Assembly (NCBI GenBank): GCA_963281255.1
Contig: OY725488.1
Span: 11,877,524-11,941,523, forward strand
Length of the DNA stretch: 64,000 nt
DNA from: Aphrocallistes beatrix
Taxonomy: Eukaryota > Porifera > Hexactinellida > Sceptrulophora > Aphrocallistidae
Direction of reading: 5' to 3'
Position 1 is the first letter of the stretch; the number at the start of each line of letters is the position of its first letter. Positions 15,180 through 42,224 of this stretch are shown here, one piece after another. The position numbers and the translations under genes are program-made. Under the pieces are notes generated by a model. The model had not been told where the DNA came from. It searched no databases and saw nothing but the letters and a program-made list of their open reading frames with translations.

Positions 15180-15290
15180 TTTCGTCTCATGGTTGGTAAC
15201 AGCCAACTACAAATAAGTCGTATTTTACAATTTGTTTCAATACGTTTACACATTCATCATTAATAGATATCGTTAGTGATTAATTAAAGA
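15180..15290 (+). promoter_or_regulatory. Conserved upstream region of class A gene 15291
   Basis: Contains GGTTGGTAACAGCC near 15191 and ATACGTTTACACATT at 15240-15254, in the same order as before the genes at 2300 and 6619. The word ends 36 bases before the ATG. Confidence 0.45.
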
Positions 15291-17814: not shown

Positions 17815-19589
17815 TTAGAGGTAGGATAGTCGTTTTAATTTGTTCTTTGGCGCACTAGAAGTTTCTGTGGATCGAAAGTTACCTTTAATAAGATCTGTAC
17901 GATTAGAGTTTCGCAACTTGCTAGTAGTCAAGGATAAATTTGAAATTTTAGGTGGAGTTTGATTCACATATGATGGGGGATAATTTATAGGTCTGTTTAT
18001 GCAAAAATTTTGAGATAATGAGCTGTTATTCGAAGAAATAGGAGGATGTGGCTGAAATACATCTGCACTGCAAAATGGTGAATCTGTAGCATGATAATTT
18101 TGAGTATAGAATGGAGAACTTTGATGCTTTACTGTGGGTGTTTTTGCCTCCAGTGTTTTAGCACGTGGGTTGCAAGATAAAACATGAAGAGGTGGAAGAA
18201 CATAATTTCTAGAAGAATAACCAAGGTTAGGAATATTGTATCTCATTAGGTTCCTTTCTCGAGACTGTTTAACTTTTGCATCAGCTAAGGATTGGGAAAA
18301 TGGAATTAATGAATTATTTGGTACATAATAATTCTTCGAATAAAATGCAAGATCACTTTCACTCTCCACAGCATAGTAACGTGTACAATTGGGAGCGTGA
18401 AGAGGAAAATTCTGATATTGATTTGGATAGTTTGAATTTATTCCACTAATGCAACGCTGATTCACTGAAGATCTTTCTGAAGAGTGTTCCCTTGTTAAAT
18501 CCGTAACTGAACGTTCGTTCTTTGAAACTGAATAATCTTTGAAATTAGACATGAAATACTGAGAATTCTGAGATCTATCTATAGAATATTGTGCTGCTTT
18601 ATTCTTTGAATAGCGTTGTTCCCATAGAGATTTCTCTGAAGAGTGTCCTCTTTTTGAATCCATTATCATGACTTGCTTCTCTACGAATATATCTAGGCGG
18701 TTGTTGGTGGTGTTATCTTGTGTATATTTACGTTGATTACCACGAGTGCTTCCCTGAATATATCGTTTAGGTGTGCTCTTTGAATCATCTACTGATGTAC
18801 CTGCAATCAGTTCCTTTTCTTTGAATTTACTCTGCCTTTTGTTCTTGTTGTTACATCTGGAGTAGAAACCTGATTTAAGTGCGAAGGTTTTATTCTATTA
18901 TCTTTAAGAATGGGACTATTTAGAACAGGATTTGTAGATCGAACTTCTTTCCTACAATTTTGACGAGAGTATTGGATTATTTCGAATTTCTTTAGATGGG
19001 AATCAGCTGATTTAGTTGTGATTTCTTTTCTTTTAACCTCAGTATAGTTATAATTTGAAGGATGCTTAATGATTTCATGAACCTTTTCCTCAAACAACTT
19101 TTTATATACTTTATTCTTTTTATTAAATTCTCTGCTCTTCCTAGCTAGACTTTTAATATCATCCTCATCCATGCTCAAAATCCCCACTGTATCAGTAGTC
19201 TCTGTCATCATGAAGCTATACACTCCTTGTAACACTGCTGACACAGTGTACGCAGGTTTCTAACACTCAGGATGGAAATCACTCAAATCAAAGCAAACTC
19301 TTTCATCTGTTTTAAAACGTCCGTTAGGCGTAATGAATTGAATTGAGGGAGGAGTGAAAGGATAGTTCTCTGGAAATACAAGTACTCCCTGGTACTCTCC
19401 TTCTTCAAAGGGAGTACCTTTAAGTCCTATGAACAGGAAATGCCATTCTAAAATTAGATCTTCATTAAACTCGACTAGAATATTATCAGGAAGATTATTT
19501 GATATTTTTTTGAATTCATTAAGAAGTCGCTTAATCGTTCGATTGAGCCCATGTGAATTGAAGTTGGAGGTGGAATTAGGAGTTTGCAT
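17815..19589 (-). pseudogene. Class B Ubc6/UBE2J-like E2 broken by a nonsense codon and a frameshift
   Basis: This is the only class B copy on the minus strand. It starts MQTPNSTSNF (ATG at 19587-19589) and keeps the UBC signature TPNGRFKTDERVC (predicted catalytic Cys) and DFHPEC. The next codon, Trp in every sister (FHPECWKPAY), is TAG at 19260-19262: one G-to-A change. The same frame then continues with KPAYTVSAVLQGVYSFMM and the conserved DEDDIKSLARKSREFNKK helix to a stop at 18807-18809. An overlapping frame, open from about 18838 down to 17815, carries a Ser/Asn/Tyr-rich tail that ends KRLSYL without a membrane segment. So two lesions separate three coding blocks. The short first product would lack the C-terminal third of the UBC fold. 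Suppression of the stop or an assembly error is possible. Confidence 0.85.
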
Positions 19590-20357
19590 AGAGGCTAATA
19601 ACAATGAGGAATTAGTATATCAAGAGATTCCCGAATTTCTTGGGACGAATAAATGTTGCTCTATATCAGTACGAATTAATCGAATTAATCTTTAATGTAA
19701 TCTGAGAAATTTCGATGTAAAACTAACGAATTAATACCAAAGATGAGGTACATTTATCCTTTAGGTGCAAAATATACTAAAATAAACCAACTTTAACAGT
19801 TGTTGGTATAGACTATTTCGTTGTTAGCTTGTATTTCGTAACAATTTTGGGGAAGAATGGCTGAAGTATTAGGCCTTCACTCAGGAACCAATTTAGAACT
19901 AAATATATCAATGTAAAACATCCAAGGTACTAAGACTAATATTAAAATCGCTGTAGGAAATACTTACAAAGTAATTAGCAATTAGTATAGCTATACTACC
20001 TAAGACCTTTATTTGCTGTTTAAATTGATTTTGCCACTATATATATATGATACAAACAAACAGTATTTGGGCGGAGCTAAATCATTGTACGTATTTTGAC
20101 TAATTTATATACGTAGTGAATCATAGCTTGGAGATATATCTCTTAGAGTATATTTTCGCATTGAATGGCACCTTGGACACCAAACTTATGATCAGTGATG
20201 AATTATTCATTATACGAAATCTTTTCTAAATGCCTAATAGAGCAAAGTTTTATTATTGAGAGTACAGTAATCAAGATATAGGAATAAAAAGAGTAATATA
20301 ACACACAGTAAGTCCATAAAGGAAGCAATTTTTTGCTTAGCTATACTCACTAATACA
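19590..20357. other. Spacer, no gene seen
   Basis: AT-rich sequence between the start of the minus-strand E2 and the 3' end of the RBR gene. I find no supported exon, repeat family or relic in it. Confidence 0.4.
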
Positions 20358-21169
20358 CTATCTCAACTTGGTTTGGATGGGAGCAGAGCAGCATAGAATC
20401 CCTGGTGGAGTTGAGATGTTGCTCCTGCAGATTAAGAATCCACTCTTACTAGAGAGACAAATAATGCAAAATTCTTGTCTGCAGCTAGAACATTTTAATG
20501 AGTTACAACCGCCAGAATATTCAACTATGACCTGGCATCGGGGACAAGCTCTTCTTGTTGGAATTTTCACCTTTTTCCCTTGAAAATCTTGGATTTCTAT
20601 TATTGGAGAGGTTTTCAGTTTTTCGATTATCTCTCTGTTGCAATTCGCATTTCCGCACACTTGACAATCTGAAGGGTTCTTCCACTCGCGCAAACAGTAC
20701 CAGCAAAATTTGAAAGATTTCCTATCTTTATTTTGACACGTAGCGCAATCAACCTGTAGAGATCCTGGATTAATCCTCTGACAGAGAGTTAGACACTTGG
20801 GGCATTCCTGAATATCTTGACTCTCACAGAAATTAGTCGCTATGGTAGTGATGATGAATTGCTTTTCTTCCAGAGTTGGTAGACCAAATTTGATAATATC
20901 ATTATGAGTTTAACACACATAGCGCAATTAATTTCATACTTCATGTTTCTTAGCTGCCCCCATGTCCATTCTAGAAGATCATCTGGACATATGTAATGGG
21001 CACATTCCATTCGTAAACCGCCTTCATCAAAACATATGCCACATTCACCTCGTGGGTGAGGGAATGATACAGTCCTTCTTTCATCTCTTACAAAATATTG
21101 TCCACGACTTCTTGCATCAATAAATTTGATTCCTGCTTTTGAAAATGGATTTGATTCACATTCAGCCAT
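20358..21169 (-). pseudogene. RBR-type (RING-IBR-RING) E3-like gene with one frameshift
   Basis: The minus-strand gene starts MAECESNPFS. RING1 is complete: C-x2-C in GECGICFDEGG, then MECAHYICPDD and INCAMC. Just after it, at about 20891-20917, the frame is lost: one frame runs on to a stop at 20840-20842, while the paralogous sequence resumes in another frame as NDIIKFGLPTLEEKQF. It continues through an IBR-type domain (CWYCLREWKNPSDCQVCG) and RING2 (RACPRCQVIVEYSGGCNSLK ... FCIICL). The GGC cysteine of RING2 is the position that carries ubiquitin in RBR ligases. The protein ends APIQTKLR, as in the intact paralogue at 32911 (APVQTKLRD). A single small deletion explains the break. RBR E3s take ubiquitin from an E2 onto their own cysteine before transfer to substrate. 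Confidence 0.85.
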
Positions 21170-21687
21170 TTAACTTTGCTGCTAATACTTTAGAGACTGC
21201 TAATACTTTAGAAGACCTTTACTAATAATCAATTGAATATAACATTGAATAGTGGCGTATTTGAATTCGCAACCCTGGAATAGTTATACATGGAATCCAG
21301 AACTGGAAAAAAAGATTGTACGGATTTTATTTGTCCTACCGTTTACGTGCTACTTAATTATTTCCTCCTATTTAGATTTAGATTGATCGTGCAATATAAA
21401 ACCAAAACGAGTCTTCATCGAGTGATTTCCAGAAATATTTGACCATTTCAGGATCAGAATTTTCTTAATTTAACATGTCCGTTTCATCCAGAGTATTTAC
21501 ATACTACCTTTTATTTTCTTCAAAAAAAATTAAAAGGTAGTAAGTAGCAAGTAAAAGAAAAGTAGCAAGTAAATCCCTATATAGTTTCAACAGTTTCATA
21601 ATGTACCTATTTCGTTGGAATGTACAGGTACAATTTGTTGGATTCAAAATGAGATGTTTCGAATGAAATTGGTCACAATTCAAAGTA
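21170..21687. other. Spacer, no gene seen
   Basis: Upstream of the minus-strand RBR gene. It contains an inverted pair of TACTACCTTTTA / TAAAAGGTAGTA words at 21500-21542, a possible short hairpin. No coding feature is supported. Confidence 0.35.
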
Positions 21688-21877
21688 TAGTCGGCTCCGC
21701 TTAATAGGGTCACTGTTTAAATGGGTCAGCCGCTTAATCGGGTCACTTTTGGCAGGACCGGAATAGCTCTCACACATAGAGGCTAATACAAAATATTTTC
21801 AGTTAATAGGGTCCTCCGCTTAATCGGGGCAAAATGTCCCCTGACCGATGTGACCCTATTAAGCGGAGTCGACTGTA
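21688..21877. mobile_element. MITE of the CTCCGCTTAAT family
   Basis: Terminal inverted repeats: TAGTCGGCTCCGCTTAATAG on the left and the inverse of CAGTCGACTCCGCTTAATAG on the right, with TA at both edges. The interior has further inverted GCTTAATCGGG words. It is related to the outer MITE at 28314-28662, sharing the CTCCGCTTAATCGG ends and an internal GAGGCTAATAC / GAAGCTAATAC word. No coding sequence; TA targets suggest a Tc1/mariner-type source. Confidence 0.75.
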
Positions 21878-22779
21878 TATAGTCTTAAATTTCTAACATA
21901 TATAGCATTTCATGTTGTGCCACCAAACCAAGATTGTGGAGACATTTTCTCATCCAAATCTAACAGTAATCAAATTTTGCATTTAGGGTCTCTTTATGAT
22001 GTAGAAGTGCATTGTATATATTTTTGGAGAAATCTCATCACTTCAGGTTCTTACCATAAGTGCATATATATTTTTACGCCTTTTAGTAAAATATACTTTT
22101 TAACAAGAATCTATGGAATATTTCAATGTAGAACCCGATTTTCGCACTACAGAAAGTAATAACGTGAATATTTTATGAGTCATTAATTTTATTTTGACAG
22201 TTTGAGGTTGAACTCGATAAGAGTAAATACATACTATGCAGCTTAATTGGTTTCCTTAGAACCAGAAAGTTTCTGGATTCTTAATTAAATAGGTATTAGC
22301 ATCTGTAAATGATGCATGTAAAAGACACAAAGTGGATCAAGAAATTGAAAGCTGTAAAATATTACAGATAAATAACGTTTAATTAGATGATAGACCTATA
22401 AACCTGAACCTAAATGCCTGAAATCCTAACTAACTTTTGTAGAAATGCTATAAAGCCCCTCTTTTCCAATTGGGCGAATTTTTCCTTGTACGAAATATTG
22501 AAAACTCGAATTGATGTAAGGAACCGAGTCGAATAAATGAGAAGCGAAATTCGAGCTAACCTAGTATCCTCATACTTCCATGCAATGAGTACATCTCCGT
22601 ATAGAAGCTGCACTGAAAATTGAAAAGGTTTTGCATGAAAATTCTATGCAATTTTTTCTTTATTTTATATTGGTGTAACCGACTGAACGCTAGTATTTGT
22701 AGTAAATAAAAATGAAATATATTAACCAGCCCTAGGTCTGATAAGTTATCTCTTGTGGTGTTTGGGCTGTAAAATGAAG
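21878..22779. other. Spacer, no gene seen
   Basis: AT-rich. Around 22556-22640 there is a fragment (ATGCAATGAGTACATCTCC, then AGAAGCTGCAC) resembling the repeat near 14597-14632 and 5089-5115. No supported gene. Confidence 0.35.
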
Positions 22780-23205
22780 TATAGTGGAACCTGTATATAA
22801 CGGCCATCCAAGGGACTGGACAAAATTTGCCGTTATACACAGGTGACCTAATTTACAAATGAATGTCTTAATCATCAAAAGGTATCAACGTAGTGCAATA
22901 AATGTCAAGTTTTAGAAATCAATTGCTTAAAGTAATTACATGAAACTTGTTTATCGTTCGTAACAGGTTCTGTAAAAACACATAAAAAGGTGAAAAAGGT
23001 GATGGCCGTTATAGACAGGTGACGACCGTTATAAACAGTTATAGGGTCAGTAATGGATTACTAACGGGTGGCCGCTGGCCGAGTTAAACAGATGACTGTT
23101 ATACACAGGTTCAATATTATGGAATTTCGGATGGGACTGTTCATTGGTAACCGCTATAGACAGGTGACCGTTATATAGAGTGGCCGTTATAGCGGTTCGA
23201 CTGTA
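22780..23205. mobile_element. MITE rich in CCGTTATA words
   Basis: The left end TATAGTGGAACCTGTATATA and right end GGCCGTTATAGCGGTTCGACTGTA are imperfect inverted copies, with TA at each edge. The interior repeats GGCCGTTATAGACAGGTGAC-type words many times in both orientations. A Tc1/mariner (pogo-like) origin is likely from the TA target and termini; no transposase remains. Confidence 0.7.
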
Positions 23206-23344
23206 TTTATATTGGCAAGGTTATACGTACATTATTATATTATCACAAACCTTGATAACTAAACAAGATATTATAATACAAATGAAAATATTGTATTTGA
23301 AAATAGTTAAAGCAAGAATGTTATTTATACAACTGTAGATCACT

Positions 23345-24070
23345 CTATGATAAAGGATAACCACCTGGAAGCCTAGTTACTAGTACGATTGTTGCTCCAC
23401 CTGTGATTCCATAATCCTGAAATGTCATAGTTTTACCAGCATGAGTATCTTCAAGTTCTTTGGTTCCATAGAGTAGACGTTGATGTTCCAGACTGACTCC
23501 CATTCTATCTCTGATTAGTGCTTTCAGTTCTGAAACTTTAAAGCTCTAATGACACATACAGTACTTAAAATGTTTGTTTGCTCGTTTGTCTAGACGTTTG
23601 GAAAAACTGATAAAGCGCTTGTATACGTTTATTATACAAAATATTATAACGGTTGCAATATAAAAAGGATAGTTTAAATAGGTTAGCAATACTATTAATA
23701 AATTAAAGAGATATTTAGGCTAGGATCGATAAGCGTAATTCGTTAGTAAAGTTAATTGGTAATGATTAGTATAAAAACTTAGTCAGTATCAAGGAATTAT
23801 CTAGGAGCGCGAGACGCTCCTTTAGGCGTATGATTTTAAGCTGCAAAGTGTTTAGGAGCGTAGCGTATCTCTGGAAGGCTGTATAATACCCTGGTTAGTA
23901 TGTTTGGAGATTATTTCGTGTTAATTAAACCTTTACCTCCTTATGTATATTATTCAATATTGGAACTGGTCTGCTATAATATTATCAAACAAACCTACCT
24001 TTATTTTTGTTGATTGAATCGGAAAAGTTTTGGTTTTCCCTTCGAGTCCTGAAATGTAGATATTTTCCAT
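23345..24070 (-). CDS. Ubiquitin-like protein, two exons, RLPGG-YPLS C terminus
   Basis: Exon 1 is 23999-24070 (starts MENIYISGLEGKTKTF, 24 codons, donor GTAGGT). Exon 2 is 23345-23545 (acceptor ATTAG; VSELKALIRD ... EHQRLLYGTKELED ... VLVTRLPGGYPLS). The intron is 453 bp. The 90-residue product aligns along its length with ubiquitin: G-K-T near the start, QRL-x-x-G-x-x-LED in the middle, and a C-terminal RLPGG (Gly85-Gly86) followed by YPLS that would need removal by a protease. Relative to ubiquitin LRLRGG, the Arg at position 72 is kept and Arg74 is Pro. It is probably a conjugated Ubl for which the nearby E2 and RBR genes could be partners; that link is inference. It is similar in layout, intron position and length to the Ubl at 27696-28948. 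Confidence 0.85.
23797..23860 (+). repeat. Inverted repeat, left copy, with inner hairpin
   Basis: It reads ATTATCTAGGAGCGCGAGAC, then GCTCCTTTAGGCGTATGATT, and contains the hairpin GGAGCG-CGAGA-CGCTCC. It lies inside the intron of the minus-strand Ubl and is repeated in reverse at 24609-24674 with only a few differences. Confidence 0.8.
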
Positions 24071-24819
24071 TATTCTTCGTAGTACGTCTACTAGGGTTGA
24101 GTAGAATATGGGATAAGAGATGTAAGATAGAAATCTACTATTCAGATCGCTGTGTTCCTAGTCAATCTCAATACTTTTATATACTAGCACACATTATAGT
24201 ATTTGACTGAAATATGATTTCATCTCCACTCTGCAAAATAAAATATTACACAAGTATAATAATAGTAATGACTTTTGATTTTAAAAGCTCGATGTTTTAT
24301 AGTTTAAACTCTGCGATAGCATTGTTTGCTTAAGAATTCTGGTTCATGTTAGTCCAAAAATTAGTTATTTTTCTTTTCGTGCGTTATACATGTAAGTGAA
24401 GCTCTTGAAAATATGCATATCTTTTATACGCATAAAGGCGAATGTACACACTTGAAAGTAATTAAATACGAACTATGCCAATCAGCTGCAGAGTAATTTA
24501 TACAGCCATTCAGACATGCTCCTAGTCTCAGACTCATACATTTTCATACGCCTATTTCGATAAAAAACATTATAACATAGGGTAAATTGTGGAAAATTCA
24601 AAATTTTGACGCTCCTAAACACTTTCGGGCTTAAAATCATACGCCTAAAGGAGCGTCTCGCGCTCCTAGATAATCATTTGATGCCAGTGGTTCTCAAAAT
24701 GGAATACGGGCCCCTAGGGCGCTGAGGGATCGTTTGGGGCGCCGTAAAGTAAGACAAGGTGACGCTAGGTTTTGGGAAAAGCTGGAAGTTCAGATTTAAA
24801 TTTTGAAAATTTCCTATTT
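24071..24819. other. Spacer between Ubl start and class A gene
   Basis: Divergent intergenic region: the Ubl runs left and the class A E2 runs right. Bases 24140-24480 are shared with 14640-14900. At 24696-24720 stands CAGTGGTTCTCAAAATGG, the start of a hAT-type MITE related to 27922, without its right end. The GC-rich stretch 24706-24765 belongs to that fragment. Confidence 0.45.
24609..24674 (-). repeat. Inverted repeat, right copy
   Basis: Reverse-complement partner of 23797-23860. The two copies bracket about 750 bp that include exon 1 and the presumed promoter of the minus-strand Ubl. They may be two independent small hairpin elements in opposite orientation or the ends of one larger unit. 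Confidence 0.8.
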
Positions 24820-24938
24820 CATCTCAAGATTGGTAACAACCAAATACATGGCCTGTATTTTATTATTTATTTTATTTACTATTCAAATTACTCATGCTTT
24901 TGAAATAGCCCAATTTTTAGATATCGATAAAGGATGCA
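24820..24938 (+). promoter_or_regulatory. Upstream region of class A gene 24939, partly conserved
   Basis: Shares TTCATCTCAAGATTGGTAAC and AAATTACTCATGCTTTTGAA with the other class A upstream regions, then AGATATCGATAAAGGATGC before the ATG. The ATACGTTTACRCATT word present before the other three genes is missing here, with a deletion at that place. Confidence 0.4.
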
Positions 24939-26738
24939 ATGAGTGATGAGGAAAGAATAAACAGTTATAACCTGCGTCGAGCTACAAAACGATTGAACAG
25001 AGAACTCAACATAATAACTAAAGACCCAATTCCTGGAATAGACCTACGCGCTAATGAAGACAACATCCTAGAATGGCATTTCGTTATACACGGGAAAGAG
25101 GATACTCCTTACTATGGTGGAATGTATCATGGAAAACTCATATTTCCTTCAAACTTCCCTTTCGGTCCTCCAAAGATTATATTCCTAACTCCGAACGGTA
25201 GATTCAAGACGAATGAACGCATCTGTTTCAGTTTGAGTGACTTCCATCCTGAAGAGTGGAAACCAGCCTTTTCAGTAACCACGGTGTTACAAGGAATTAC
25301 AGATTTTATGCACGATAGCACTGAGACTATAGGTAGCATTGAGACGAGTGAGAGTGTGAAGAAACAGCTCGCTGATAGTAGTTCCATTCACAATGGTAAA
25401 GATGCTATTTTCTGTCACCTCTTCCCCCAACTGTGTGGAAGAAAATTAACAGATTCAGAAGATAGTTCGAGTGAATCTAGTCCTCCAAAGAGCCCAACAG
25501 CGACTTCAGATACCAAAATATCTCCCACACTTCCAGAGCGGGAGGTACTTATTAAGATAACTCCACCATCACCACCTCCACCATCTCTATTTAGAGACAC
25601 TCGATCTGGCGAAAAAGAAAAGGCAAAGGAAGCTGTTTTCTTTCGAGAAGAGTCTTCATCACCTCGTGGAATTGTTCAAACTTCTGGAGAAGAATCTCCA
25701 ATATCAAGTGGAACCATTATAAAACAGATTACTCCAACACATACCACTCCTTTACAGAATGTGTCTCAGGACTCCACAGATCCAATACCTAAAAGTCTTG
25801 ATACAAATTCCCAGATTCCAGAAAATATTGAGTTAGAGAAGATTCCAGCAGATATTCCTAGTGAAAATAGAAAGCTACCTTCTCTACCAATCAATATTCC
25901 AGATGCTGCGGATTCACAGAGAAGACTCCCTTCTTTACCCAAAGAAAAAATTCCCTCACCGGAAACTAAAGTTTCCCCAGTTAGAGAAAATATCCGATCA
26001 CCAGATGAGATCTCCCTACCAACTAGAACCCAATCTCAAACATCTACTGAAATAACTTCACCACCTACACATCTAACTCCAGTACCTAGTGAGATAACTT
26101 CACCTCCACCTGAAGAAACACTTACATCAAAGGACAATCAAAAAGAGTCCTCATCACCTGATGAAATTATTAAAACCTTCAGGAAAGAACCTAGTGGAGC
26201 CATTCAAGAACAGAGAACTATTACTCCTCCAACACATACCACTCCTTCAGTCCCTAAACCAATGTTCTACCCTGTAAAATGTCCTGAAGCACAACCTTCC
26301 TCAAGAGAAGTAAGACCTCTTTCACAGAATGTATCACCTCTGATACCATTCATTAGATCTCCCATTAAATCCAAAAAGCAAAATTCTGGGGAAAATTCCC
26401 AGACGCTAGAAAGTAATGAGCTGGATGTGAGACGAGCACATTCTTTTAGTGAATATGGAAAGCGACCTTCTCCACTAATCAAATCTTCAGGAGCTACACA
26501 TTCACAAAGAAACCTCCCTTCTTCGCCCAAAGATATAATTCCTCAAATTGGAACGGTAACATTTCAAGATATTGAACGAGCTCATCGCCAGGATGTAGAT
26601 ACACGTTCCTTACGTCATCATATGTTTCAACCTAACATCAGGACGATGGATTTCACCATTGGTGCTCTCGTATTTAGCCTTATTCTTATTTTAATTCTAG
26701 GCCTGCTATTGATAGCACTGCTCTTCTTATTACCTTGA
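24939..26738 (+). CDS. Class A Ubc6/UBE2J-like E2, tail-anchored, single domain
   Basis: An intact frame of 599 residues. The UBC domain (residues about 12-135) has TPNGRFKTNERIC with predicted catalytic Cys96, then SLSDFHPEEWKPAFSV and the subtype-1 signature TTVLQGITDFMHDSTETIG, matching the first domain of the double genes at 2300 and 6619. A conserved SSIHNGKDAIFCHLFPQLCG block follows, as in all class A genes. Then comes a disordered Pro/Ser/Thr tail with two rounds of the THLTPV cassette. The C terminus (IGALVFSLILILILGLLLIA then LLFLLP) is a tail anchor. As in UBE2J enzymes, catalysis would take place on the cytosolic face of the ER. The ATG follows AAAGGATGCA and is conserved among sisters. 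Confidence 0.92.
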   Translation: MSDEERINSYNLRRATKRLNRELNIITKDPIPGIDLRANEDNILEWHFVIHGKEDTPYYGGMYHGKLIFPSNFPFGPPKIIFLTPNGRFKTNERICFSLSDFHPEEWKPAFSVTTVLQGITDFMHDSTETIGSIETSESVKKQLADSSSIHNGKDAIFCHLFPQLCGRKLTDSEDSSSESSPPKSPTATSDTKISPTLPEREVLIKITPPSPPPPSLFRDTRSGEKEKAKEAVFFREESSSPRGIVQTSGEESPISSGTIIKQITPTHTTPLQNVSQDSTDPIPKSLDTNSQIPENIELEKIPADIPSENRKLPSLPINIPDAADSQRRLPSLPKEKIPSPETKVSPVRENIRSPDEISLPTRTQSQTSTEITSPPTHLTPVPSEITSPPPEETLTSKDNQKESSSPDEIIKTFRKEPSGAIQEQRTITPPTHTTPSVPKPMFYPVKCPEAQPSSREVRPLSQNVSPLIPFIRSPIKSKKQNSGENSQTLESNELDVRRAHSFSEYGKRPSPLIKSSGATHSQRNLPSSPKDIIPQIGTVTFQDIERAHRQDVDTRSLRHHMFQPNIRTMDFTIGALVFSLILILILGLLLIALLFLLP

Positions 26739-27695
26739 ATTAAATGTAATAATTCATTTTAAAATATTGTGTATATATATATATACATATATTCCATTAT
26801 TTTTATTGCTGCTTTTAATGCTAGTTTAATTTAATGCATGATTTTCTTATATTTTCACTAATTGATCTTAAACAATTGTACCTAGAAACATTTCCCAAAA
26901 TCTGAGGCTTTTATTATTGGAGTATGTTTATTTATATCGACTCTAGAATCACTAGCTTCTTCCTTCCGTTCGATTTATTGATTTTGGGGGACGAGAGAAT
27001 ATATCTTATATAAGCAAGTGAACTATGCTCATATCTCCCCAAACTGATTTAAAATGTACATTCAGGACAGAATGAATCTCTATTTTATCAAGTAAAGTCT
27101 TCATTCGATCCAGTTACGTATCCAGACCTGGCCAAATGGGAATGAACCACTAACTGTGTAGTATATAACAACTCTATGTGGAGTCATCGAATATACTCAT
27201 CAATAATAAATTCATAGCTACCTATCTCTCCATAAGAGATCAATAGGCTTTGAATATTTGATTAGGTGATGATGACTTACAAGTGTGTGTGGCTATTCTT
27301 ATCAGTTATCAATATCTATCTACTGCTATATTTATCTCTGAGAATGAATTACTGAACTTCGTTAATGCAAACACTGGACGGTCAAATTTGTTCGTATTGT
27401 CCTGGATTCGAACCAACTGGAGGAATCTACACATGTATTTTATTCCGTAGGGGATACAATATATATTCGTATTATCGTTCGTCTCAACGAGATTCTACTA
27501 TACTCGAGTTCTTCATCGAATTTAAGAAATCAATAAGACAGAACTGGAATAGAGAATAATGAATATGAATTTGCTTCAAGATTAAGAGGCAGACGTACCC
27601 TCTTCTCCAATTTAAGTTTCAAGCTTCTTTTAAACCTACATGCTTACACGTTTGTTTTATAATTAGACTTAGTTGGTAGTTACACTAGTATCAGA
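26739..27695. other. Spacer with shared 3' flank; no gene seen
   Basis: The first 260 bases resemble 4500-4700 after the class A gene ending at 4364. A TA microsatellite lies at 26771-26786. The remainder up to the Ubl start holds only short frames with no recognisable content. Confidence 0.4.
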
Positions 27696-28948
27696 ATGGA
27701 AACTATTTTTATCTTGGGACTTGAAGGAAAGACCAAAACTATCTGTGTAAAGAAAAAGCAAATGCAGGTAAGAGACCAAATTTAATGTTAGTGTTATTAC
27801 TAGATGCTAATAGACACATATATCCCTCATCATATTGCATTTGATAATACTATTGGGATTTGACCTAACAAAGTAACTCCACTATGTCCATTCAAGCACA
27901 CTACAAAACTACTATTTACTACAGTGGTTCTCAACCTTTCATGGTCCGTGGCCCCCTTACCGAGACCCTGAGTACTGTAGCCCCCTGCCCTTCAATAAAA
28001 AAACGTAGATTTCTATAGAATATTTAATTTCAATTGGACAGTATGTTTGAGTCAATACTTAAACATAGCCCCCTGGTGAAGGCCTCTGCTCGTGGCCCCT
28101 GGTTGAGAAACGCTGATTTGCTAGTTAAGGGTTAGTAGACAGGCCATAAGGAAGTAGCCTAACCAGTTTTGTTGCTGTACGTGCACTTTACTGTTTTTTC
28201 CAAGTTATTCGATCTGTGAATTCTGAGTGTTACGTTCCTGAAAATCAATGGCCAATTTGGGTTTTTCTTTTTCGCTTGCAGTATAGTATTCATAGAATAC
28301 ATATACTGTCAACTCCGCTTAATCGGGACAAGTCTCCAGGAACTGAATGGTTCCCTTACATAGAAGCTAATACAGTCGAAACCGGGTTTTTTTCTTACAC
28401 CGGGTTATCCTTACTGTTGTAAGAAATTTCAGGTTTACGAGTACATTCCATCGTATTTCTATTGCTCGCGGTTTATTCTTATAATCGGTTTATTATTACT
28501 TCGGTTGATCCTTATATCGGTTTATCCTTACTATATTTATCTGAAAAGAAGTAAGAAAAACCGGTTTCGACTGTACTAAATTCATTGGTTAATTGGGAAC
28601 TCCGCTTAATCGGTATAGAATATCCAGGAGCAAAGTGTCCCGATTAAGCGAAGTTACCTGTAATAGAAAAACGGCAGTAGTATCTAATTTTAAAATTGCT
28701 GATGTTAATTGTCGAGAGATTTTAAGTAATTCTATTTGTTTATGAATATTTTTTAGACTTACACAGTTAGTGAGCTTAAAGCTCAAGTGCTTTTAAGAAC
28801 TGGTATCGAAGCTGAAAATCAAAGATTGTTATTCGCGGGTAGAGACATTCTAGAAACCAGGAACGATCAGGTGATGAAGATCAGTGACTATGGAATCGTA
28901 GGAAATGTCACCATAGTTTTGGTGGTTCGTCTCCCAGGCGGTAGTTAA
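27696..28948 (+). CDS. Ubiquitin-like protein, two exons, RLPGG-S C terminus
   Basis: Exon 1 is 27696-27767 (METIFILGLEGKTKTICV, 24 codons, donor GTAAGA). Exon 2 is 28757-28948 (acceptor TTTTAG; VSELKAQVLL ... ENQRLLFAGRDILE ... SDYGIVG ... VLVVRLPGGS). The phase is kept and the product has 87 residues. QRLLFAGR corresponds to QRLIFAGK of ubiquitin (Lys48 position is Arg), and the diglycine is at 85-86 with one extra Ser, so a processing protease is expected. The intron is 989 bp, unusually long here, because it holds a hAT MITE and two nested MITEs. The paralogue at 23345-24070 has its intron after the same codon 24. No close named family is recognised (not SUMO, NEDD8 or URM1 by eye); it is a divergent ubiquitin-type protein. 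Confidence 0.88.
27922..28115. mobile_element. hAT-type MITE in the Ubl intron
   Basis: Starts CAGTGGTTCTCAACCTTTC and ends GGTTGAGAAACGCTG, the classic hAT (Charlie-like) termini. It is flanked by ATTTACTA (27914-27921) and ATTTGCTA (28116-28123), a target duplication matching 7 of 8. 194 bp, no coding capacity. Confidence 0.85.
28314..28662. mobile_element. CTCCGCTTAAT-family MITE carrying a nested MITE
   Basis: Outer termini are TACTGTCAACTCCGCTTAAT and the inverse GATTAAGCGAAGTTACCTGTA. The two halves are separated by the element at 28371-28575. With that removed, the rest aligns with the element at 21688-21877. It lies within the Ubl intron. Confidence 0.8.
28371..28575. mobile_element. 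Inner MITE (TACAGTCGAAACCGG termini)
   Basis: Begins TACAGTCGAAACCGGG and ends AAACCGGTTTCGACTGTA, a near-perfect inverted repeat with TA target, inserted at a TA of the outer element. The interior has repeated CGGTTTAT-CCTTA words. A younger insertion than its host. Confidence 0.85.
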
Positions 28949-30363
28949 TACCAATTAAAGAACACTTTATTATTTATACCAAGAAACATTTTCTAAATGT
29001 CATCGCTTAATTTATATGTACCTTTTATACAAGTAGGATAATTTATTCATAGAATTTTGTATTGAAATAGTTAATTAATAAGCCACATGGAATAGCGAAT
29101 GCAAATCTTATATATTAAAATGCTAGGATTTTTTTATTATTTTTTTGTGTTTGTCCGAATTGATTGAAGAATTGCGAAGTCATAGAGATGTGAAAATTTC
29201 CATATAGGTGTCAAATGATGAATCTACGATCCAGTTCTAAGATCTAAGCGAAATTTTCACATCTCTGGAAAAAAATGGAAAACAATTTTTCACACCTTTT
29301 TTCTATACAAAATAAATGACTACACTATCACAATAGAAATCATTGTACAAGTACGACACTACAATAAATCGTCATTATTATTATACTTCAAAGCCACAAC
29401 TTGTTTGATATCTTAAATGTATTAGAATGTATGGCAATAAAAAAAGATTGTCTGCATATTTTCACACAATTTGATGAATTTTGAAAATAATGCTAGAGAC
29501 TAGCTTCTAACGGGTGACATGGGGTTTTCAGGGGTATAGATTTCGAATATCATATTTTCGAGTCAATTTGACGATCAATTTGTTTACTTTTGTTTACAAT
29601 AGATACATAAAGTAAACAAATTACAAAAATATGCTAGAGACTAACTTTAAACGGTTGACATGGGGTTTAGTACTGTAGGTTTAGTACTGTAGATAAGTAC
29701 TGTAGATTTCGAATATTATATTTCGGATCCATATGAGAAGTTATTCGTTAACCTTTGTTTACAATATATATACTATAAGTGAAAAAAAAATCCCAAAATT
29801 GGTTAGATTGAGTAACTCCACGCGCCCGCAAGGCGAATCTGCGGACACACAGTGTCTGCAAGCCCCGCACGCAAGCAAGCGAAGCCGCTTGTATGAAGTT
29901 AAATTCTGCGATTTCAAAAAATTTAGGGCATTATTTATAAGGAATCCTGGCTGTCAAGGATGAATCTGTGGGCGGAAATAGGAACAGTGAACCATGTGTA
30001 TAATAATGTACAAAACCTTGTGTTAGTATGAATCCACGAAGTGAATGACTGGAATTATCTATTAGCTATGTAAACTCTTACACTATTAGTAAACACTTTA
30101 ATTTTAAGCTCAACGGTTCATATTGGGTACTTCACTATGTAGAATCTGATTTAAGCACTGAGATGGCTACTATAATGATGGGAATATTTAATAGGTTAAT
30201 GACACTTGTATTTGTATGTTACATCTCTGTTTGTTTCTTAATGAAACTGCACGATCAGTCAACCGACATTTGTAAAAGAAATATTTACTTTCATTTTTAG
30301 AATTTTTTAAAATGCGGATGTTAATTTTATAAAGGTAGATACTTATATAGTCTCCATTTCTAC
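28949..30363. other. Spacer dominated by an interspersed repeat
   Basis: Contains the repeat at 29107-29900. After it there is AT-rich sequence without supported genes up to the TRAF start. Confidence 0.4.
29107..29900 (+). repeat. Interspersed repeat, possibly Helitron-like
   Basis: It begins TCTTATATATTAAAATGCTA and includes GTGTTTGTCCGAATTGATTG, a word also found at 45238 in a second copy (45198-45740). The GC-rich end has a hairpin CAAGCGAAGCCGCTTG at about 29876-29891; a comparable GCGAAGCGCGC end stands at 35537. A TC start, a 3' hairpin and no inverted termini are Helitron features, but the canonical CTAG-type end is not seen, so the class is tentative. Within it, two partly similar stretches (29490-29600 and 29630-29760) form an internal duplication. 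Confidence 0.5.
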
Positions 30364-32213
30364 ATGGCAGCGAGAGAACATTTTGGTTCAGACACAGCGT
30401 CACAATTCCAAGATTGCGCATGCGTGAAGCTAGAAGACGGCGTGTATAGAGGATGGAAGCTAGATATTCTGTGTGAGGAACTGAGTCAATCAGAAAAGAG
30501 ATTGGTCACTTGTGGCCTATGTAAGGGACTGCTGAGAGAGGCGTGTGAGGTGAAGCTCATGGATAGACAGGTGATCAGATGCAAGAGTTGTCTTTCGAAA
30601 GAACATCCAGAGCGAAAAGCTGAGTACATTAGTGAGTTTATCGAAGAGAAAATGGTAAGTTTGAACTAATAGATTAATAAGTGGTTGATTGAACTTTTCA
30701 CGAAAGAATTATCCTGGACCAGGATACATGTTGAGGTATGGTGGAAATAGTTCCCAAAAAAGTGGAAATAGTTTGACTTTCCATAAAAACCACCATTAAT
30801 CCTCATGATAAAAAGTCGAACTATTTCTTTTTTCGAAAAGTCGAACAATTTCTGTATTACCACATGTTGAAGTCCTGGCCTGCCTAGGAAATCCTATACT
30901 TGATCACCCTAGCTATGCGTCATGTGTAAAAATCAATTTATGTCTATACCAGAGAAAAATTCGCTTCCATTTTAAGTTCATATATTTTCTAAAATTAGGT
31001 ATTTTGCCCATTGGACGATTGTAAATGGAGCGGCAAATTGAAGAACCTTGTATGGCATCTTGGGGAGTGTCCTTTCGTTAAGATTCCGTGTCCACTGAAA
31101 TGTTTCAGCGAAAGGGGAAATGTGGAGGAGACACGCAAGATAGAGAGGAGATTGATTGGACTCCATCAAGAAAGAGATTGTTCAATGAGATTAGTGACTT
31201 GCGAATTCTGTGATGAACGAATAAGGTCTTGTGAAGTTAATATGCACCTTGAGAAGTGTATATATTTTCCTGTCCCTTGTCCGAACGCGTGCACCTTTGG
31301 TGAAAGGAAACTGAAAAGGAAAGAACTTCCAACTCATTTAGAAACCGTATGTCCGTTGCAACATATTCCCTGCCTCTATTCACTGTATGGATGCAAAATT
31401 ACTGTCTTGAGAAAGGATTTGGAACAGCATGAAAAAGATGTGTGCTATCTTCACAATAGGATGATGAGTCAGCATCTTGAAAATAGGCTTGAATCAGTGC
31501 TGAGAATTCAAGAAAATACCGTCAAAGAGAACGTCGAACTAAAGAGCACTTTGAGCCAGATGAGCAAGAAACAAGAAGAGAATTGCTTTCTTATTGAACT
31601 GCTTGAAAACAGTAATATTAAGCTGAGACAGAAACTAAACAGCCCTACTCCCTCCCTCTCCATTCCGCATAAAGGTGTCCTGGACTGGACTTTAACTAAA
31701 GTGTCTCAGAAACTCCACAACGCAGGAATATCTCACAGCGAACCATTCTACGCTGGATTCTATAGATTCATGATGGATATCGACTGGAATACTGAAGATG
31801 ACCATGTCGGGATATTCACGAAATTAATTAGAGGTGAATGGGATGATCAGCTGCTTTGGCCAGTGAGGTACTGATGCAAATGCTCCATTTTAGATGAAGG
31901 AGAAGATATCATATACTCAAATGAATATGAAATTAGTCATCATGATATCAATCAATACCCTTAAACATTCTCAAATCCAAGCTGTACTACTGGTAATAAA
32001 GAAATTGGACTTCCAAAATATGCTCCACGTTCAACGATTATAATGTTAATCAATTTGGATAATTCTATGTCGTTTGAGGTCGCGGTTGAAATATTGTCAG
32101 ATGATTCAGATGACTTATCTCGTGTAGTACATTCAGATATTCCTTTACTGAGGAATGATATCATCCGACTAAATAAAGAGGTCTACGATTTGTCGAGAAG
32201 ACTCATCACTTAA
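30364..32213 (+). pseudogene. TRAF-like gene, two in-frame stops in the MATH domain
   Basis: Exon 1 (30364-30654, 97 codons) carries a reduced RING-like start (CGLCKGLLREAC ... CKSC). The intron 30655-30998 has GTAAGT and TTAG ends. Exon 2 opens with TRAF-type zinc fingers (CPLDDCKWSG ... HLGECPFVKIPC; CEFCDERI ... HLEKC ... CPNAC; GCKITVLRKDLEQHEKDVC). A coiled coil follows (ENRLESVLRIQENTVKENVE region), then a MATH/TRAF-C domain with DWNTEDDHVGIF and DDQLLWPVRY. TGA at 31872-31874 ends this frame, yet the same frame continues with CSILDEGEDI, a TAA at 31962-31964, and NPSCTTGNKEIGLPKYAP, which fits the last third of a MATH domain. So two nonsense codons truncate it. TRAF proteins are receptor adaptors and some are RING E3 ligases. 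The visible product would lose the C-terminal half of its receptor-binding domain. Confidence 0.85.
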
Positions 32214-32910
32214 GATAGCTCCGTAGCACTATTTGCTGCTCTATCTCACTTAATTATAGCTGGCTCAATATTATATTATAAAGTTATATAGGCATTATAC
32301 GTATATCTATAATTTCATGTTATACTCATTAGGTTAGGAATTAGTATTATTATCTGAATATTTTCCTTGATTCATGCTAGTCCAATTATTTATTAAACTT
32401 AGTCAATCCGTTACACATTCGAGTAGGGCATTAGTCGTATGTGAAAAAGAAGATCGCGATCTTAGCTGATATTATGATTTGCGATCCCGACCAAGATCAA
32501 ACTTTCGAAAAGGATCGTGATCCCAATTTGGATCATTTTTCCAATTGTTTTTGTTACTCGAATATATTTCTATCAAAACTAATATCCGAATACTAATTAA
32601 ATTTAGCTATAAGAACGCGTAATGTTTTTTTAGTGCTAGTGGAAGACTCAAATTGGTAACAGCTTGTAATGATGTTCGGGAGAGAAACAATACAATTTGC
32701 CAAAAATGATCGGACGAAAAAAGATCGCGATCTTCTATTCTATCATTGAATAAAAGATCGCCGTTCCTCATTCGAACGTCAAAGTACCAGTATATACAAT
32801 ATTTTTCAATCCTTGTTGATGTTTTCGACAGGTTGATAATGCAGGAGTTACACTATCAGTCTGTCGACCGACATTGTTTTATTTTATTAGATTTTTGGTT
32901 TAAACCTAGA
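32214..32910. other. Spacer with GATCGCGATC repeat
   Basis: No gene. Bases 32449-32735 are bounded by AAGATCGCGATCTT palindromes with further GGATCGTGATCC words between, a probable small element. The frame of the downstream RBR gene is open back to about 32746, but the conserved protein starts at 32911. Confidence 0.4.
32449..32735. repeat. Possible small element bounded by AAGATCGCGATCTT palindromes
   Basis: The word AGAAGATCGCGATCTT at the left and AAAGATCGCGATCTTCT at the right enclose AT-rich sequence with scattered GATCSTGATC words. No coding capacity; no clear target duplication. Confidence 0.45.
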
Positions 32911-33738
32911 ATGTCTGGGGGAGCGTGCAAATGTGCACTTGACACATATGATGTAAAGCTTTGGGATGTCAGAGTAGGAGCAAATTACTTCATAGAGAAT
33001 CGAAACGAGTCTAGAACAGTTCCATTCCCTCATCCTAAAGGAGACTGCTCCATCTGTGGTGATAGAAGTGGACTCAAAATGCAGTGCGGTCATTACATCT
33101 GTCCAGACGATTTGCTAGATCTTGCTTGGAATCAAATCGAGCATTTGAAGCATGAGATAAGCTGCGGCACATGTCCATCCATCATCTCTATTGATGACAT
33201 CATAACGTTCGGACTGCCTAATGATGATGAGAAACAGTTCCTACTGACTGCGGTTTCACTTAACTATTGTGAGAGTCAGGACATACAACAATGTCCTGGT
33301 TGTCTGACTTACTGTCAGAGGTTGAGGACTGACAGTCCGCAGGTTAAATGTACTGTTTGTACCAAAAAGAAAGGAAAGGATTTTGAGTTTTGCTGGGTTT
33401 GCTTGAAGCAGTGGAATAATCCTGACAACTATAAGGTTTGCGGAAATTTTGGTTGTAAAGGAAGAGATCTCGCTCAGCTACGGAATTGTGCGAAGAAAGA
33501 ATTTAAAGATCGGGAAGGAACAGTCGTATTTGTTCCTCAAATGAGAGCCTGCCCAAAATGCTTCACAATTTTGGAACATCTAAGTGGTTGTAATGAAATG
33601 ACTTGCAAAAAGTGCGAAGAAAAGTTTTGCTTCATTTGTCTTGCCAAGACAGAAGGAGGAAGTTTGATTTGTAGTGGAAGAACCTATAGGATCATCACAT
33701 GTACTCCAGCTCCTGTACAAACCAAGTTGAGAGACTAG
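32911..33738 (+). CDS. RBR-type (RING-IBR-RING) E3 ligase, intact
   Basis: An intact frame of 275 residues from ATG 32911 (MSGGACKCALDTYDVKLWDV). RING1 spans residues 46-88: CSICGDRSG, then MQCGHYICPDD and CGTC. An IBR-type zinc domain lies around 125-190 (QCPGCLTYC, then FCWVCLKQWNNPDNYKVCG). RING2 spans 214-243: RACPKCFTILEHLSGCNEMT, CKKCEEKFCFICL. Cys227 in SGCNEM matches the RBR catalytic cysteine that forms the thioester with ubiquitin. RBR ligases accept ubiquitin from an E2 and hand it to substrate. No extra ubiquitin-like or UBA domain is seen, so it is a minimal RBR. The protein starts near the RING, so targeting must come from partners. It is the paralogue of the broken gene at 20358-21169 and shares the APVQTKLR ending. 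It is single-exon, unlike the seven-exon gene in the window. Confidence 0.9.
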   Translation: MSGGACKCALDTYDVKLWDVRVGANYFIENRNESRTVPFPHPKGDCSICGDRSGLKMQCGHYICPDDLLDLAWNQIEHLKHEISCGTCPSIISIDDIITFGLPNDDEKQFLLTAVSLNYCESQDIQQCPGCLTYCQRLRTDSPQVKCTVCTKKKGKDFEFCWVCLKQWNNPDNYKVCGNFGCKGRDLAQLRNCAKKEFKDREGTVVFVPQMRACPKCFTILEHLSGCNEMTCKKCEEKFCFICLAKTEGGSLICSGRTYRIITCTPAPVQTKLRD

Positions 33739-34404
33739 GAACCCATAGAGAAAAATCACTTCTGATAACTTATAAATCCATAGTACCCTATACAATGACA
33801 TTTGATGGCTCTTAAAATTATTTTCTTTTCTTATATTCTATACTTTACTAGTCCACTTCTCTTAGTAGTTAGTATCAATAATGTGTATGTGATAAATGAA
33901 TCTTGAACATAGAAGAATATGCATTGTTTCGGGGTATGCCTAATTTCCGGGACGGGACGAGTCAAGATGCCTAATCTCCGGGGCGGGACAGAAAAAGTAC
34001 CTAATTTTCGGGACGGGATTCTGTCCCGTCCCAGAAATTAGGCATGCCCATTGTTTTGTTCGAAAATACATCCGGAAATTAAAAAAACTACATGCCAGTC
34101 ATGTACAGGGCATGTCAGGAACAAATTAATTTGTGGGAATATACAAAATTTATCACATCACCACATCCTTATATTCTAACTAGATGTGCACCACGTATTC
34201 ACACATTGTATGCATTGCTAGTCACTAATTACGAGACTCGTAATACAGATGAATGCCACCCGTAGGGAGCATTTTGATACGTAGATTGACAATACTAATA
34301 ATGGTTTGTGATTATTCCTTGTTAAATGAACCCGATAGACTTGACTAAACTTATCTAGGGTCATGTTTTATCTATTTTAATTTATCTACATTTATTGTTA
34401 GACT
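33739..34404. other. Spacer with one small MITE
   Basis: Besides the inverted-repeat element at 33932-34049 I see no gene or relic. Confidence 0.4.
33932..34049. mobile_element. Short MITE with GGGTATGCCTAATTT ends
   Basis: The left end GGGTATGCCTAATTTCCGGG mirrors the right end CCCAGAAATTAGGCATGCCC. Flanks are ATTGTTTCG and ATTGTTTTG, a likely 8-9 bp target duplication. Internal tandem copies of the CCTAATTTCCGGGACGGGAC word (three in all). 118 bp. Confidence 0.75.
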
Positions 34405-35130
34405 ATGCAGTCATCAACACTTAACGTTGATTCATATTGTCTCAATCGAGCAAAGAAACGCCTTCATAATGAATATGGAAAACTATTAAATAATCTCCCA
34501 AAAGATATTTCTGTTATTATTAGAGAAGATCTACTTTTAGAATGGCATTTTCTTTTCAAAGGAATGAAAGATACCCCTTTTGAAGGAGGAGAGTATCATG
34601 GAACACTTGTATTTCCAGAGAACTACCCTTTCTCTCCGCCCTCCATTCGGTTCATTACGCCTAACGGACGTTTTAAAACGAATGAAAAAGTTTGCTTTGA
34701 TCTGAGTGATTTCCATCCTGAGTGTTGGAAACCTGCGTACACTGTGTCAGCAGTGTTACAAGGAGTGTATAGCTTCATGATGAGTGAGACTACTGATACA
34801 GTGGGGAGTTTGAATGTAGATGAGGATGAGGTCAGAGAATTAGCTGGAAAGAGCAGAGAATTCAATTTAAAAGATGGTGCTTATAGTGATTTGATTAAAA
34901 CCTGTATGAACTATGATTCCGCTGATTCTTCAACAATTAATTCTACAAAAAAGAATAACTCGAAAAACCAAGATTCTCTCAAAAAAAAATCACTTACACC
35001 AGATGTTAATTCTGAGATCTCTTTAGAACGGAAATATTGTGAAACACCTCCAAATTCAAATTCCAGATCAATGCTAGAAAGAATCCGATCCGTTTTATGC
35101 TGTTCTAAGAAACAAGTAAAATTAAATTAA
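34405..35130 (+). CDS. Class B Ubc6/UBE2J-like E2, short soluble form
   Basis: An intact frame of 241 residues starting MQSSTLNVDSYCLNRAKKRL. The UBC domain has LEWHFLF, TPNGRFKTNEKVC (predicted catalytic Cys97) and FDLSDFHPECWKPAYTV, then the class B helix DEDEVRELAGKSREFNLKDG. Only about 70 residues of Ser/Asn/Lys-rich tail follow, ending RIRSVLCCSKKQVKLN. No membrane segment is present; the Cys-Cys near the C terminus could be lipid-modified, which is speculation. It is the smallest and probably the least altered class B gene. It shares the long N terminus of the minus-strand copy (MQTPNSTSNF...) rather than the shortened one of the later genes. The neighbour upstream is the intact RBR. 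Confidence 0.92.
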   Translation: MQSSTLNVDSYCLNRAKKRLHNEYGKLLNNLPKDISVIIREDLLLEWHFLFKGMKDTPFEGGEYHGTLVFPENYPFSPPSIRFITPNGRFKTNEKVCFDLSDFHPECWKPAYTVSAVLQGVYSFMMSETTDTVGSLNVDEDEVRELAGKSREFNLKDGAYSDLIKTCMNYDSADSSTINSTKKNNSKNQDSLKKKSLTPDVNSEISLERKYCETPPNSNSRSMLERIRSVLCCSKKQVKLN

Positions 35131-41462: not shown

Positions 41463-42224
41463 TTTTATTTTCATATATGCTAAGCAATAAACTCATTAAA
41501 CTTTTGTATACTTAATCTAGCCTCTATGTATAATTTAGCATAACTGAGACTCGTTCCTCATCAGTCGATACAGCCTTAATCTTTTCTAGAAATTAATATC
41601 ATACTATAGTAATTATTCCACAATTTTAATACCGAAGCTTGAATATAATTATATAGATCCATATATATTACTGTCTCATGCCTGTTGATATTATTTTTTG
41701 GTGTTTTGCACTTGGTTTACTCACTTATAATCAGAGTTGCCGTGGGAGGAATCCCTTGGATGGGAATGGGAATTGAAATTTCATTCCCACGGCAACCCTG
41801 CTTATAATGGAGTAGTACATATAGTTAAGATGTTTGACATCCTATTAAAAAACTGAATTAGAGTATTTTTTCCACTGTTGAATTTTAGATAATTTATAGT
41901 ATAAAATTGAAAAGCAACTTGGAAATATATATCAGTGTTGCTGTGTGAGCATGCTCATGCTTAATTTTAAATTGAAAATTCGACCCAAAGGTTCGAGATA
42001 GATTAAATTTGCAGATCCTAGTGCAACGTAAAACATTGATATTTGTTGAACAAAATATTCAAAATTGGATAAAATGATGATTAATTGGTATTGGATTGCA
42101 CTTTTTTTGATAAAATATAATTGAAACTGTCGCCCCCAGTAAAGTTGTTTAATGAAAATATTTTTTAGCTTTTTGATTATAAACGCTTTTTTCATCTGTC
42201 CATCATGCAATCAAATAACCATTA
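41463..42224. other. Class B intergenic unit (3' flank, then 5' flank of next gene)
   Basis: The stop-proximal 130 bases (AATAAA, then the GCTGAGACT stem-loop word) recur after the tails ending at 45045, 49359 and 54720. The last 300 bases recur before the genes at 50333 and 55553 (TAATTTTAAATTGAAAATTC-like, then ATCATGCAATCAA). The tandem unit is gene plus both flanks. At 41740-41800 a short inverted pair (GCCGTGGGAGGAATCCC / TCATTCCCACGGC) may be a small insertion. Confidence 0.6.
41486..41491 (+). terminator. AATAAA polyadenylation signal, gene 36423
   Basis: AATAAA 24 bases after the stop codon, in the conserved 3' flank of class B tails. Confidence 0.6.

Follow-up and report, generated by a model that had tools for sequence, protein, structure and literature searches.

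The stretch analysed here, which we call the window, comprises 64,000 nucleotides of the glass sponge Aphrocallistes beatrix (C1:11877524-11941523, in a genome of 100.5 Mb in 28 contigs), and it holds two gene groups that each bring together a small ubiquitin-like protein (Ubl), a RING1-IBR-RING2 (RBR) ubiquitin ligase and a ubiquitin-carrier enzyme (E2). Positions refer to the window or, with the prefix C1: or as eight-digit numbers, to contig C1 (Table 1). On the minus strand the order of reading is Ubl1 (23345-24070), RBR1 and an E2, and on the plus strand it is Ubl2 (27696-28948), a TRAF-like gene, RBR2 and an E2, with the two groups pointing away from one another. The original prediction, made from the letters alone, had named two small Ubls ending in diglycine, three E2 loci and 14 UBC domains, all of which were found (14 UBC matches counted as Pfam UQ_con), together with a TRAF gene, which has a Pfam zf-TRAF match, and a third RBR relic on the minus strand, whose extent is now 1502-1711 rather than 1558-1705. 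Two RBR genes had also been named; both loci are present, but RBR1 is frameshifted and RBR2 alone is intact. The minus-strand E2 proved to carry an in-frame TAG within its UBC domain. Because RBR1 changes frame and this E2 has an internal stop, the minus unit is probably decaying despite its whole Ubl1; Ubl2, RBR2 and the E2 of the plus unit have open frames. Between 24070 and 27696 the island reverses strand: with one exception, the listed Ubl and RBR loci as far as Ubl1 lie on the minus strand, and every one from Ubl2 onward lies on the plus strand. The TRAF-like gene was rejected as a part of the repeated unit, since tblastn of 284 kb returned one match, which was the gene itself.

The window lies within an island of 14 Ubl, about 30 RBR and about 27 UBE2J-like E2 loci in 0.6 Mb of C1, as counted from matches grouped by hand with relics included. 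The part of the island that was read is essentially the contiguous 284 kb between 11677524 and 11961523. It gave an analysis set of 10 of the 14 Ubls, 10 RBR genes with intact frames and, from broken RBR1, its larger piece. By searching the genome for the RBR, we found that 38 of 40 matches fall in C1:11402343-11990201, about 0.6% of the genome, a clustering beyond chance, and that the other two are weak. The E2 search gave 65 matches, 30 of them in the island; of the others, two alone exceed 60 bits, namely C16:4038812 (141 bits, 42% identity) and C1:5443211 (127 bits, 43%). The 37 Ubl matches comprise 18 in the island (14 loci, four of the matches being first exons), 9 to ordinary or poly-ubiquitin, and 10 on C20 (five), C12 (three) and C16 (two), where C12:148283 and C20:483170 score no better than ubiquitin.

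Gene order within the island is strict. For all 14 island Ubls, the first family gene met downstream on the strand of that Ubl is an RBR, compared with a mean of 5.0 after shuffling of labels (none of 20,001 reaches 14), and an E2 comes next after the RBR in 5 of the 14 units (shuffle mean 1.6; 268 of 20,001). Shuffles within strands agree, with means of 5.2 for the pair and 1.4 for the triplet, reached by 0 and 121 of 20,000. Related copies are not independent events; the numbers thus show that the Ubl-RBR pair is a unit that was copied and retained, and are not proof of joint working. Between the four B-type units of the 284 kb, the alignable stretches (>120 bp) are coding only, and gene order has therefore outlived the flanks, while A-type units have more in common, non-coding repeats included.

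All ten Ubls read consist of a first exon of 24-28 codons with a GLEGKT-like motif, a phase-0 intron of 61-999 bp with GT/AG ends and a second exon; first exons were placed by likeness to that of Ubl2 rather than from transcripts, and one (for 11944148) was picked by eye below the top score. Lys11, Arg72, Gly75 and Gly76 are retained in all ten, the equivalents of Arg42 and of Lys48 in nine each, and none has Lys63. Six have Pro at position 74, the others Arg, Gln, His or Ser; a Pro there may slow general deubiquitinases. In both window Ubls Arg74 is replaced by Pro and Arg72 is retained, as had been predicted, and the divergence from ubiquitin claimed at Lys48 stands for Ubl2 (Arg) but not for Ubl1, which retains Lys. 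After the diglycine come 0-4 residues and a stop (YSS, Q, YLSS, YPPS, YA, YPLS, S, ICS, none and CVS), so that the ends, a constant diglycine with a short variable tail, look like those of precursors of conjugated modifiers. Because of this stop in all ten, we also rejected a parkin-like single gene in which splicing would join the Ubl exon to the RBR.

A protein search with seven of the ten Ubls, the other three being omitted for exact words common with ubiquitin, gave 15 relatives among 424 candidates. The best was a 91-amino-acid (aa) protein of Oopsacas minuta named 'Polyubiquitin-like' and ending in RLPGG-NRYFH; the C-terminal Gly-Gly also occurs in the database relatives P0023, P0024, P0025, P0027 and P0028, and P0029-P0036 are weaker relatives. 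An AlphaFold2 model of the O. minuta homolog P0023 (predicted local distance difference test score, pLDDT, 80) has a beta-grasp fold, and its best Foldseek matches are ubiquitins (probability 1.00, best E 1.3e-3, none at <=1e-3); this fold evidence concerns P0023 and not the window Ubls themselves. On C20, one island-family Ubl (L047, C20:485340-486060) stands in frame with a Cys-rich C-terminal stretch following LLGGGG, and five Ubl matches at C20:483170-491776 lie in frames of 236-280 aa.

The RBRs are about 275 aa in size, with an uncertain start in RBR2, where an additional ATG lies 24 codons upstream. Pfam recognises only the RING2 region of RBR2, and a profile of 21 sequences matches ARIH2 from RING1 to RING2 (positions 31-257). 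All 24 Protein Data Bank (PDB) matches of the RBR2 model (pLDDT 78) at E<=1e-3 are RBR ligases, with ARIH2 first at 1.5e-6, and the low TM-scores of these matches probably come from differing domain placement. The catalytic Cys of RING2 is present in 11 of 11 loci read, broken RBR1 included, in a count that leaves out relics and the divergent copy at 11950576; it is likewise present in 20 of 21 database RBR proteins, P0006 being without it. Only about 25-40 residues follow the last RING2 Cys pair, and an Ariadne domain is thus lacking. Since only 45-70 residues precede RING1, there is no room for a RING0, and the parkin arrangement of Ubl, RING0 and RBR in one chain was not found, as the 10 intact RBR frames have their own ATG. 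A protein search with an intact RBR gave 21 relatives among 154 candidates, three of them from Oopsacas minuta, and 4 Ubls and 7 RBRs of the protein database are on contigs of one identical size, 1,739,404, which we count in favour of the cascade proposed below. A viral origin was rejected, as no relative of the RBRs or Ubls was found in IMG/VR.

The best PDB relatives of the island E2s are Ubc6 and UBE2J2. We distinguish b-type E2s, of whose 12 frames 7 have a hydrophobic, probably membrane-spanning stretch (19-residue mean hydropathy >=2.5 in the C-terminal part), from a-type E2s, which are those of the five triplets and reach this value in none of 12 frames (two reach 2.11 and 2.35). The active-site motif, with TPN replacing HPN, is present in 22 of 25 UBC rows. 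All 23 UBC domains of the 284 kb that have an in-frame TPNG motif and loop 7 read W-K-P in that loop, with Lys at the position of UbcH7 Lys96. The closest two E2s from elsewhere in the genome, apparently ordinary UBE2J enzymes, read W-N-P and W-E-P instead. According to the accessible text of PMC5548887 and PMC5462532, UbcH7 Lys96 (in the W-S-P-A-L position) docks RING1 of the RBR ligase HHARI and helps to determine specificity for it, and its swap into UbcH5b raises activity. The loop-7 Lys is the most specific hint that island E2s serve RBRs.

The Ubls and RBRs are under purifying selection. Of 45 Ubl pairs, 12 have dS<1.5 (33 were dropped as saturated), and in these the ratio of nonsynonymous to synonymous substitution rates (dN/dS) is 0.16-0.38; for the 15 of 55 RBR pairs below the same threshold (40 dropped) its median is 0.24. 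None of these 27 retained pairs exceeds 1, with the 73 saturated pairs set aside, and such pairwise averages can hide site-wise selection. The distances among Ubls follow those among their RBR partners (Mantel r 0.78 for 9 pairs, one partner being the larger piece of broken RBR1; 36 of 20,000 permutations reach it).

We consider it reasonably likely, judging from sequence, that the window lies within an island of tandem-duplicated units that form a lineage-specific Ubl cascade, running from a host UBA1-type activating enzyme (E1) to local E2s and on to paired RBR ligases. The linkage is observed, and conjugation is what we infer from it. Each unit reads on one strand as Ubl, RBR ligase and, in 5 of 14 units, an apparently soluble UBE2J-derived E2. 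A hydrolase would trim the 0-4 residue tail of the Ubl, and a host E1 of the UBA1 type would then activate it through the retained Arg72 and Arg42; in the accessible part of PMC9378703, Asp591 of yeast Uba1 meets ubiquitin Arg42 and Arg72, and Arg72 is the primary determinant for UBA1. The local E2s would carry the activated Ubl, RING1 of the RBR would bind the E2 through the loop-7 Lys, and the RING2 Cys would accept the Ubl as a thioester and hand it to a substrate, while duplication of whole Ubl-RBR pairs would give rise to parallel, diverging tags and ligases. The genome-wide search for the E1 SCCH domain gave 9 matches, the E1 candidates being a complete domain on C14 and partial ones on C4, C7 and C6. 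None is on C1, so that, as had been noted, the window has no E1, and the island does not hold the E1 of a self-contained operon. The linked module of the original prediction is strongly supported as to linkage, by same-strand Ubl-RBR order in 14 of 14, the five triplets, matched divergence and the loop Lys, but it is not self-contained, and the suggested role in immunity or self-recognition is speculative.

Several observations weigh against a working cascade, and some of them favour a reading as duplication history only, in which the E2s and RBRs would handle ordinary ubiquitin, the Ubl would be a separate modifier charged by host enzymes, and all would be neighbours merely by having stood in the founding segment. 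We regard this explanation as possible though rather unlikely. Tandem copies of an adjoining pair preserve order automatically, 16 of the 30 RBR loci have no Ubl directly upstream, b-type E2s stand without a Ubl-RBR pair directly before them, and the 14 Ubl partners include one frameshifted RBR (partner of 11900871) and one relic (partner of 11971658). The original prediction had taken Ubls scattered far from E2 and E3 genes as grounds for refutation, and this is partly what we found, as the ten Ubl matches on C20, C12 and C16 are without an RBR of the island family, although two of them are no stronger than ubiquitin. The one Ubl found in O. minuta is on a contig of other size than the three RBRs found there. 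Among the E2s, the active-site motif is missing from 3 of 25 UBC rows (in one case simply through a frame break), and one UBC domain (L048), which also reads W-K-P, has Ser instead of the active-site Cys. The loop-7 Lys, being inherited, may reflect one founder event, and it is not sufficient in itself, since UBE2L6 has this Lys and yet works poorly with HHARI, as given in the accessible text of PMC5548887. The island RBRs also lack the two-residue RING1 loop-II insertion of HHARI and mostly lack the acidic residue that meets Lys96, the residue following the second loop Cys of RING1 being variable. Against duplication history alone stand the B-type units, in which the flanks have diverged and the order was kept, the fact that zero of the 14 island Ubls is without an RBR, and the RBR-type Lys of the island E2s, which their nearest outside relatives do not have.

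The strict Ubl-RBR pairing with matched divergence would also be expected if the Ubl bound its RBR non-covalently and turned it on or off, as a counterpart of the parkin Ubl domain with a gene of its own. We find this improbable, because docking needs no free diglycine, yet all ten Ubls retain Arg72 and the diglycine, which a stop follows within 0-4 residues, and because the RBRs are nearer to ARIH than to parkin and have no space for RING0 in the 45-70 residues before RING1. Slightly less probable again is an ISG15-like role, in which the Ubls would mainly tag foreign or viral proteins as an antiviral mark or serve unattached as decoys; that units have been duplicated and have decayed within a single lineage, and that one unit has a TRAF gene, would fit, but no retained pair has dN/dS above 1, with the reservation on site-wise selection given above. 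That the island is mostly a dead, neutral duplication patch is very improbable, since the broken copies (RBR1 with its E2, and the RBRs at 11785655, 11870749, 11872262, 11879025 and 11974472, which have stops or frame changes) stand against the low dN/dS of the Ubls and against splice sites and diglycine conserved in ten of ten.

The cascade reading could be extended to the expression of the units. In this extension, which we hold to be doubtful, Ubl-RBR-E2 units would be animal operons whose transcript is cut by spliced-leader trans-splicing into three mRNAs, each unit would supply a private tag, carrier and ligase that react among themselves and not with the parts of other units, and one animal would run many parallel systems, possibly for immunity or for fusion and self-recognition in its syncytial body. 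From RBR stop to E2 start the distance is 666 bp in the plus unit of the window and about 650 bp, measured by hand, in the unit 11946132-11947608. An acceptor-like YAG lies <=5 nt upstream of the ATG in 5 of 12 a-type E2s, 2 of 10 RBRs and 0 of 10 Ubls, against a background of 381 of 10,662 ATGs (3.6%), and the p of 4e-5 for this excess is optimistic, as the a-type E2 copies are related. Acceptor-like scoring over 80 nt is raised in Ubl, RBR and a-type E2 genes alike, and only the 5-nt test separates them. Since cis-spliced 5' untranslated regions would look identical, the excess near E2 starts may serve as a lead only. In the accessible text of PMC7986045, spliced-leader trans-splicing is reported in hexactinellids and operons are not; for A. 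vastus, trans-splicing is reported in the part of the source available, in only 4% of long reads. A shared promoter word was considered and rejected, which is a further point against the cascade: no common 8-mer was found in the 300 bp upstream of 10 Ubl, 10 RBR and 12 a-type E2 genes (b-type E2s were not included), the best 8-mer being reached by 99 of 100 random controls.

Among known systems, ubiquitin, ISG15 and NEDD8 resemble the island Ubls in the beta-grasp fold, with the Arg72-x-x-Gly-Gly tail as in ubiquitin, and the precursors of ISG15 and NEDD8 have a short C-terminal extension, as the island Ubls do. The island Ubls differ in being single-domain, lengthened by about four residues ahead of helix 1 and by about five ahead of the TLSDY-like segment, in having mostly Pro at position 74, in the loss of Lys63 and in their many paralogs in one island. 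The E2s are like UBE2J2/Ubc6 in the TPNGRF motif, the best PDB matches and the apparent membrane tail of 7 of 12 b-type frames, whereas their loop 7 has Lys and not Asn or Glu, the a-type has apparently lost the anchor and often has a long tail, and the genes stand in a tandem array. The RBRs share with ARIH1/ARIH2 the RING1-IBR-RING2 order, the RING2 catalytic Cys and the best profile and fold matches, and differ from them in being about 275 aa, in having neither an Ariadne domain nor the RING1 loop-II insertion, and in being tandem single-frame genes. With UbcH7 (UBE2L3) and HHARI, the likeness lies in the Lys of the RING1-docking W-x-P-A loop, in the accessible text of PMC5462532; because the island E2s are UBE2J-derived, their Lys was probably gained independently of UbcH7. 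The archaeal Ub-E1-E2-RING operons of Caldiarchaeum likewise adjoin tag, carrier and ligase genes, as described in the available portions of PMC5654768 and PMC6043591, whereas the island is in an animal genome, uses an RBR and not a small RING, and has no E1; no Rpn11-like gene was noted in the island, none having been searched for.

To our knowledge, new Ubl modifiers with their own ligases are rare, and the animal genes for them are usually scattered. None of the listed papers on hexactinellids and ubiquitin describes such an island by its title, which does not prove absence from print, and the term 'ubiquitin' did not turn up in the main text of the genome papers on O. minuta and A. vastus. 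In this island, about 14 diverging copies bring a modifier together with its probable carrier and probable ligase, which makes two matters testable: the assembly of a new conjugation cascade from old parts, with a UBE2J enzyme that carries an RBR-docking Lys, and the co-divergence of tag, carrier and ligase. A cascade of this kind would be a lead on recognition or defence in syncytial glass sponges.

Table 1 Features of the window, in window coordinates.
Feature	Position	Strand	Details
Ubl1 exon 1, starts MENIYISGLEGKT	23999..24070	-	likeness to Ubl2 exon 1; 453-bp intron before exon 2; GT donor, AG acceptor
Ubl1 exon 2, end RLPGG-YPLS-stop	23345..23545	-	Arg72, Gly75, Gly76 and Lys48 equivalent retained
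RBR1, Ubl1 partner, probably decaying	20358..21169	-	frame change between two frames, internal stops
a-type E2 after RBR1, probably decaying	17815..19589	-	one in-frame TAG in UBC domain
Ubl2 exon 1	27696..27767	+	
Ubl2 exon 2, end RLPGG-S-stop	28757..28948	+	Lys48 equivalent is Arg
RBR2, RING1-IBR-RING2 ligase intact by sequence, 275 aa	32911..33738	+	in-frame ATG 24 codons upstream would give 299 aa
a-type E2, Ubc6/UBE2J-like	34405..35130	+	no apparent membrane tail; active-site Cys present; loop 7 reads W-K-P; starts 666 bp beyond RBR2
b-type E2, UBE2J-like, C-terminal membrane segment	24939..26738	+	
TRAF-like gene between Ubl2 and RBR2, outside repeated unit	30364..31874	+	zf-TRAF, partial MATH
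RBR relic	1502..1711	-	one TGA and two TAG inside
a-type E2, very long C-terminal tail	36336..41462	+	1708-aa frame
a-type E2	42219..43826	+	
a-type E2	50327..52465	+	
a-type E2	55547..59110	+	1187-aa frame
a-type E2	59399..60289	+	
a-type E2	60959..63466	+	
b-type E2, broken frame	2288..3232	+	
b-type E2, next frame, with the end of the UBC domain and a membrane tail	3129..4364	+	
b-type E2, two UBC domains	6616..8643	+	
b-type E2 with membrane tail	15288..16958	+	

Elsewhere in the island, an OTU frame at C1:11778285 was considered as a dedicated deconjugase and rejected: because the genome has at least 149 OTU-domain matches, spread over many contigs and often in frames that measure 175-260 or about 1040-1100 aa, it is probably a mobile-element component. 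Torsin-like AAA ATPase frames also occur within the island (C1:11866683-11867075 and 11869206-11870075). Other arrays were seen in the genome. On C7, a second E2 array at C7:223564-390021 has 18 matches, of which 13 fall in frames of about 900-1150 aa and between which E1 SCCH matches occur (C7:357536-359344); a Ubl-domain array at C7:589268-595792 has frames of up to 838 aa. At C15:555014-584647 lies a polyubiquitin-like array of several dozen diverged ubiquitin repeats, most of them in 270-680-aa frames. At each of two further loci, C11:323848-326439 and C1:7376577-7379024, Ubl and UBC matches lie in frames of equal length (1162 and 1144 aa) and apparently belong to one protein.

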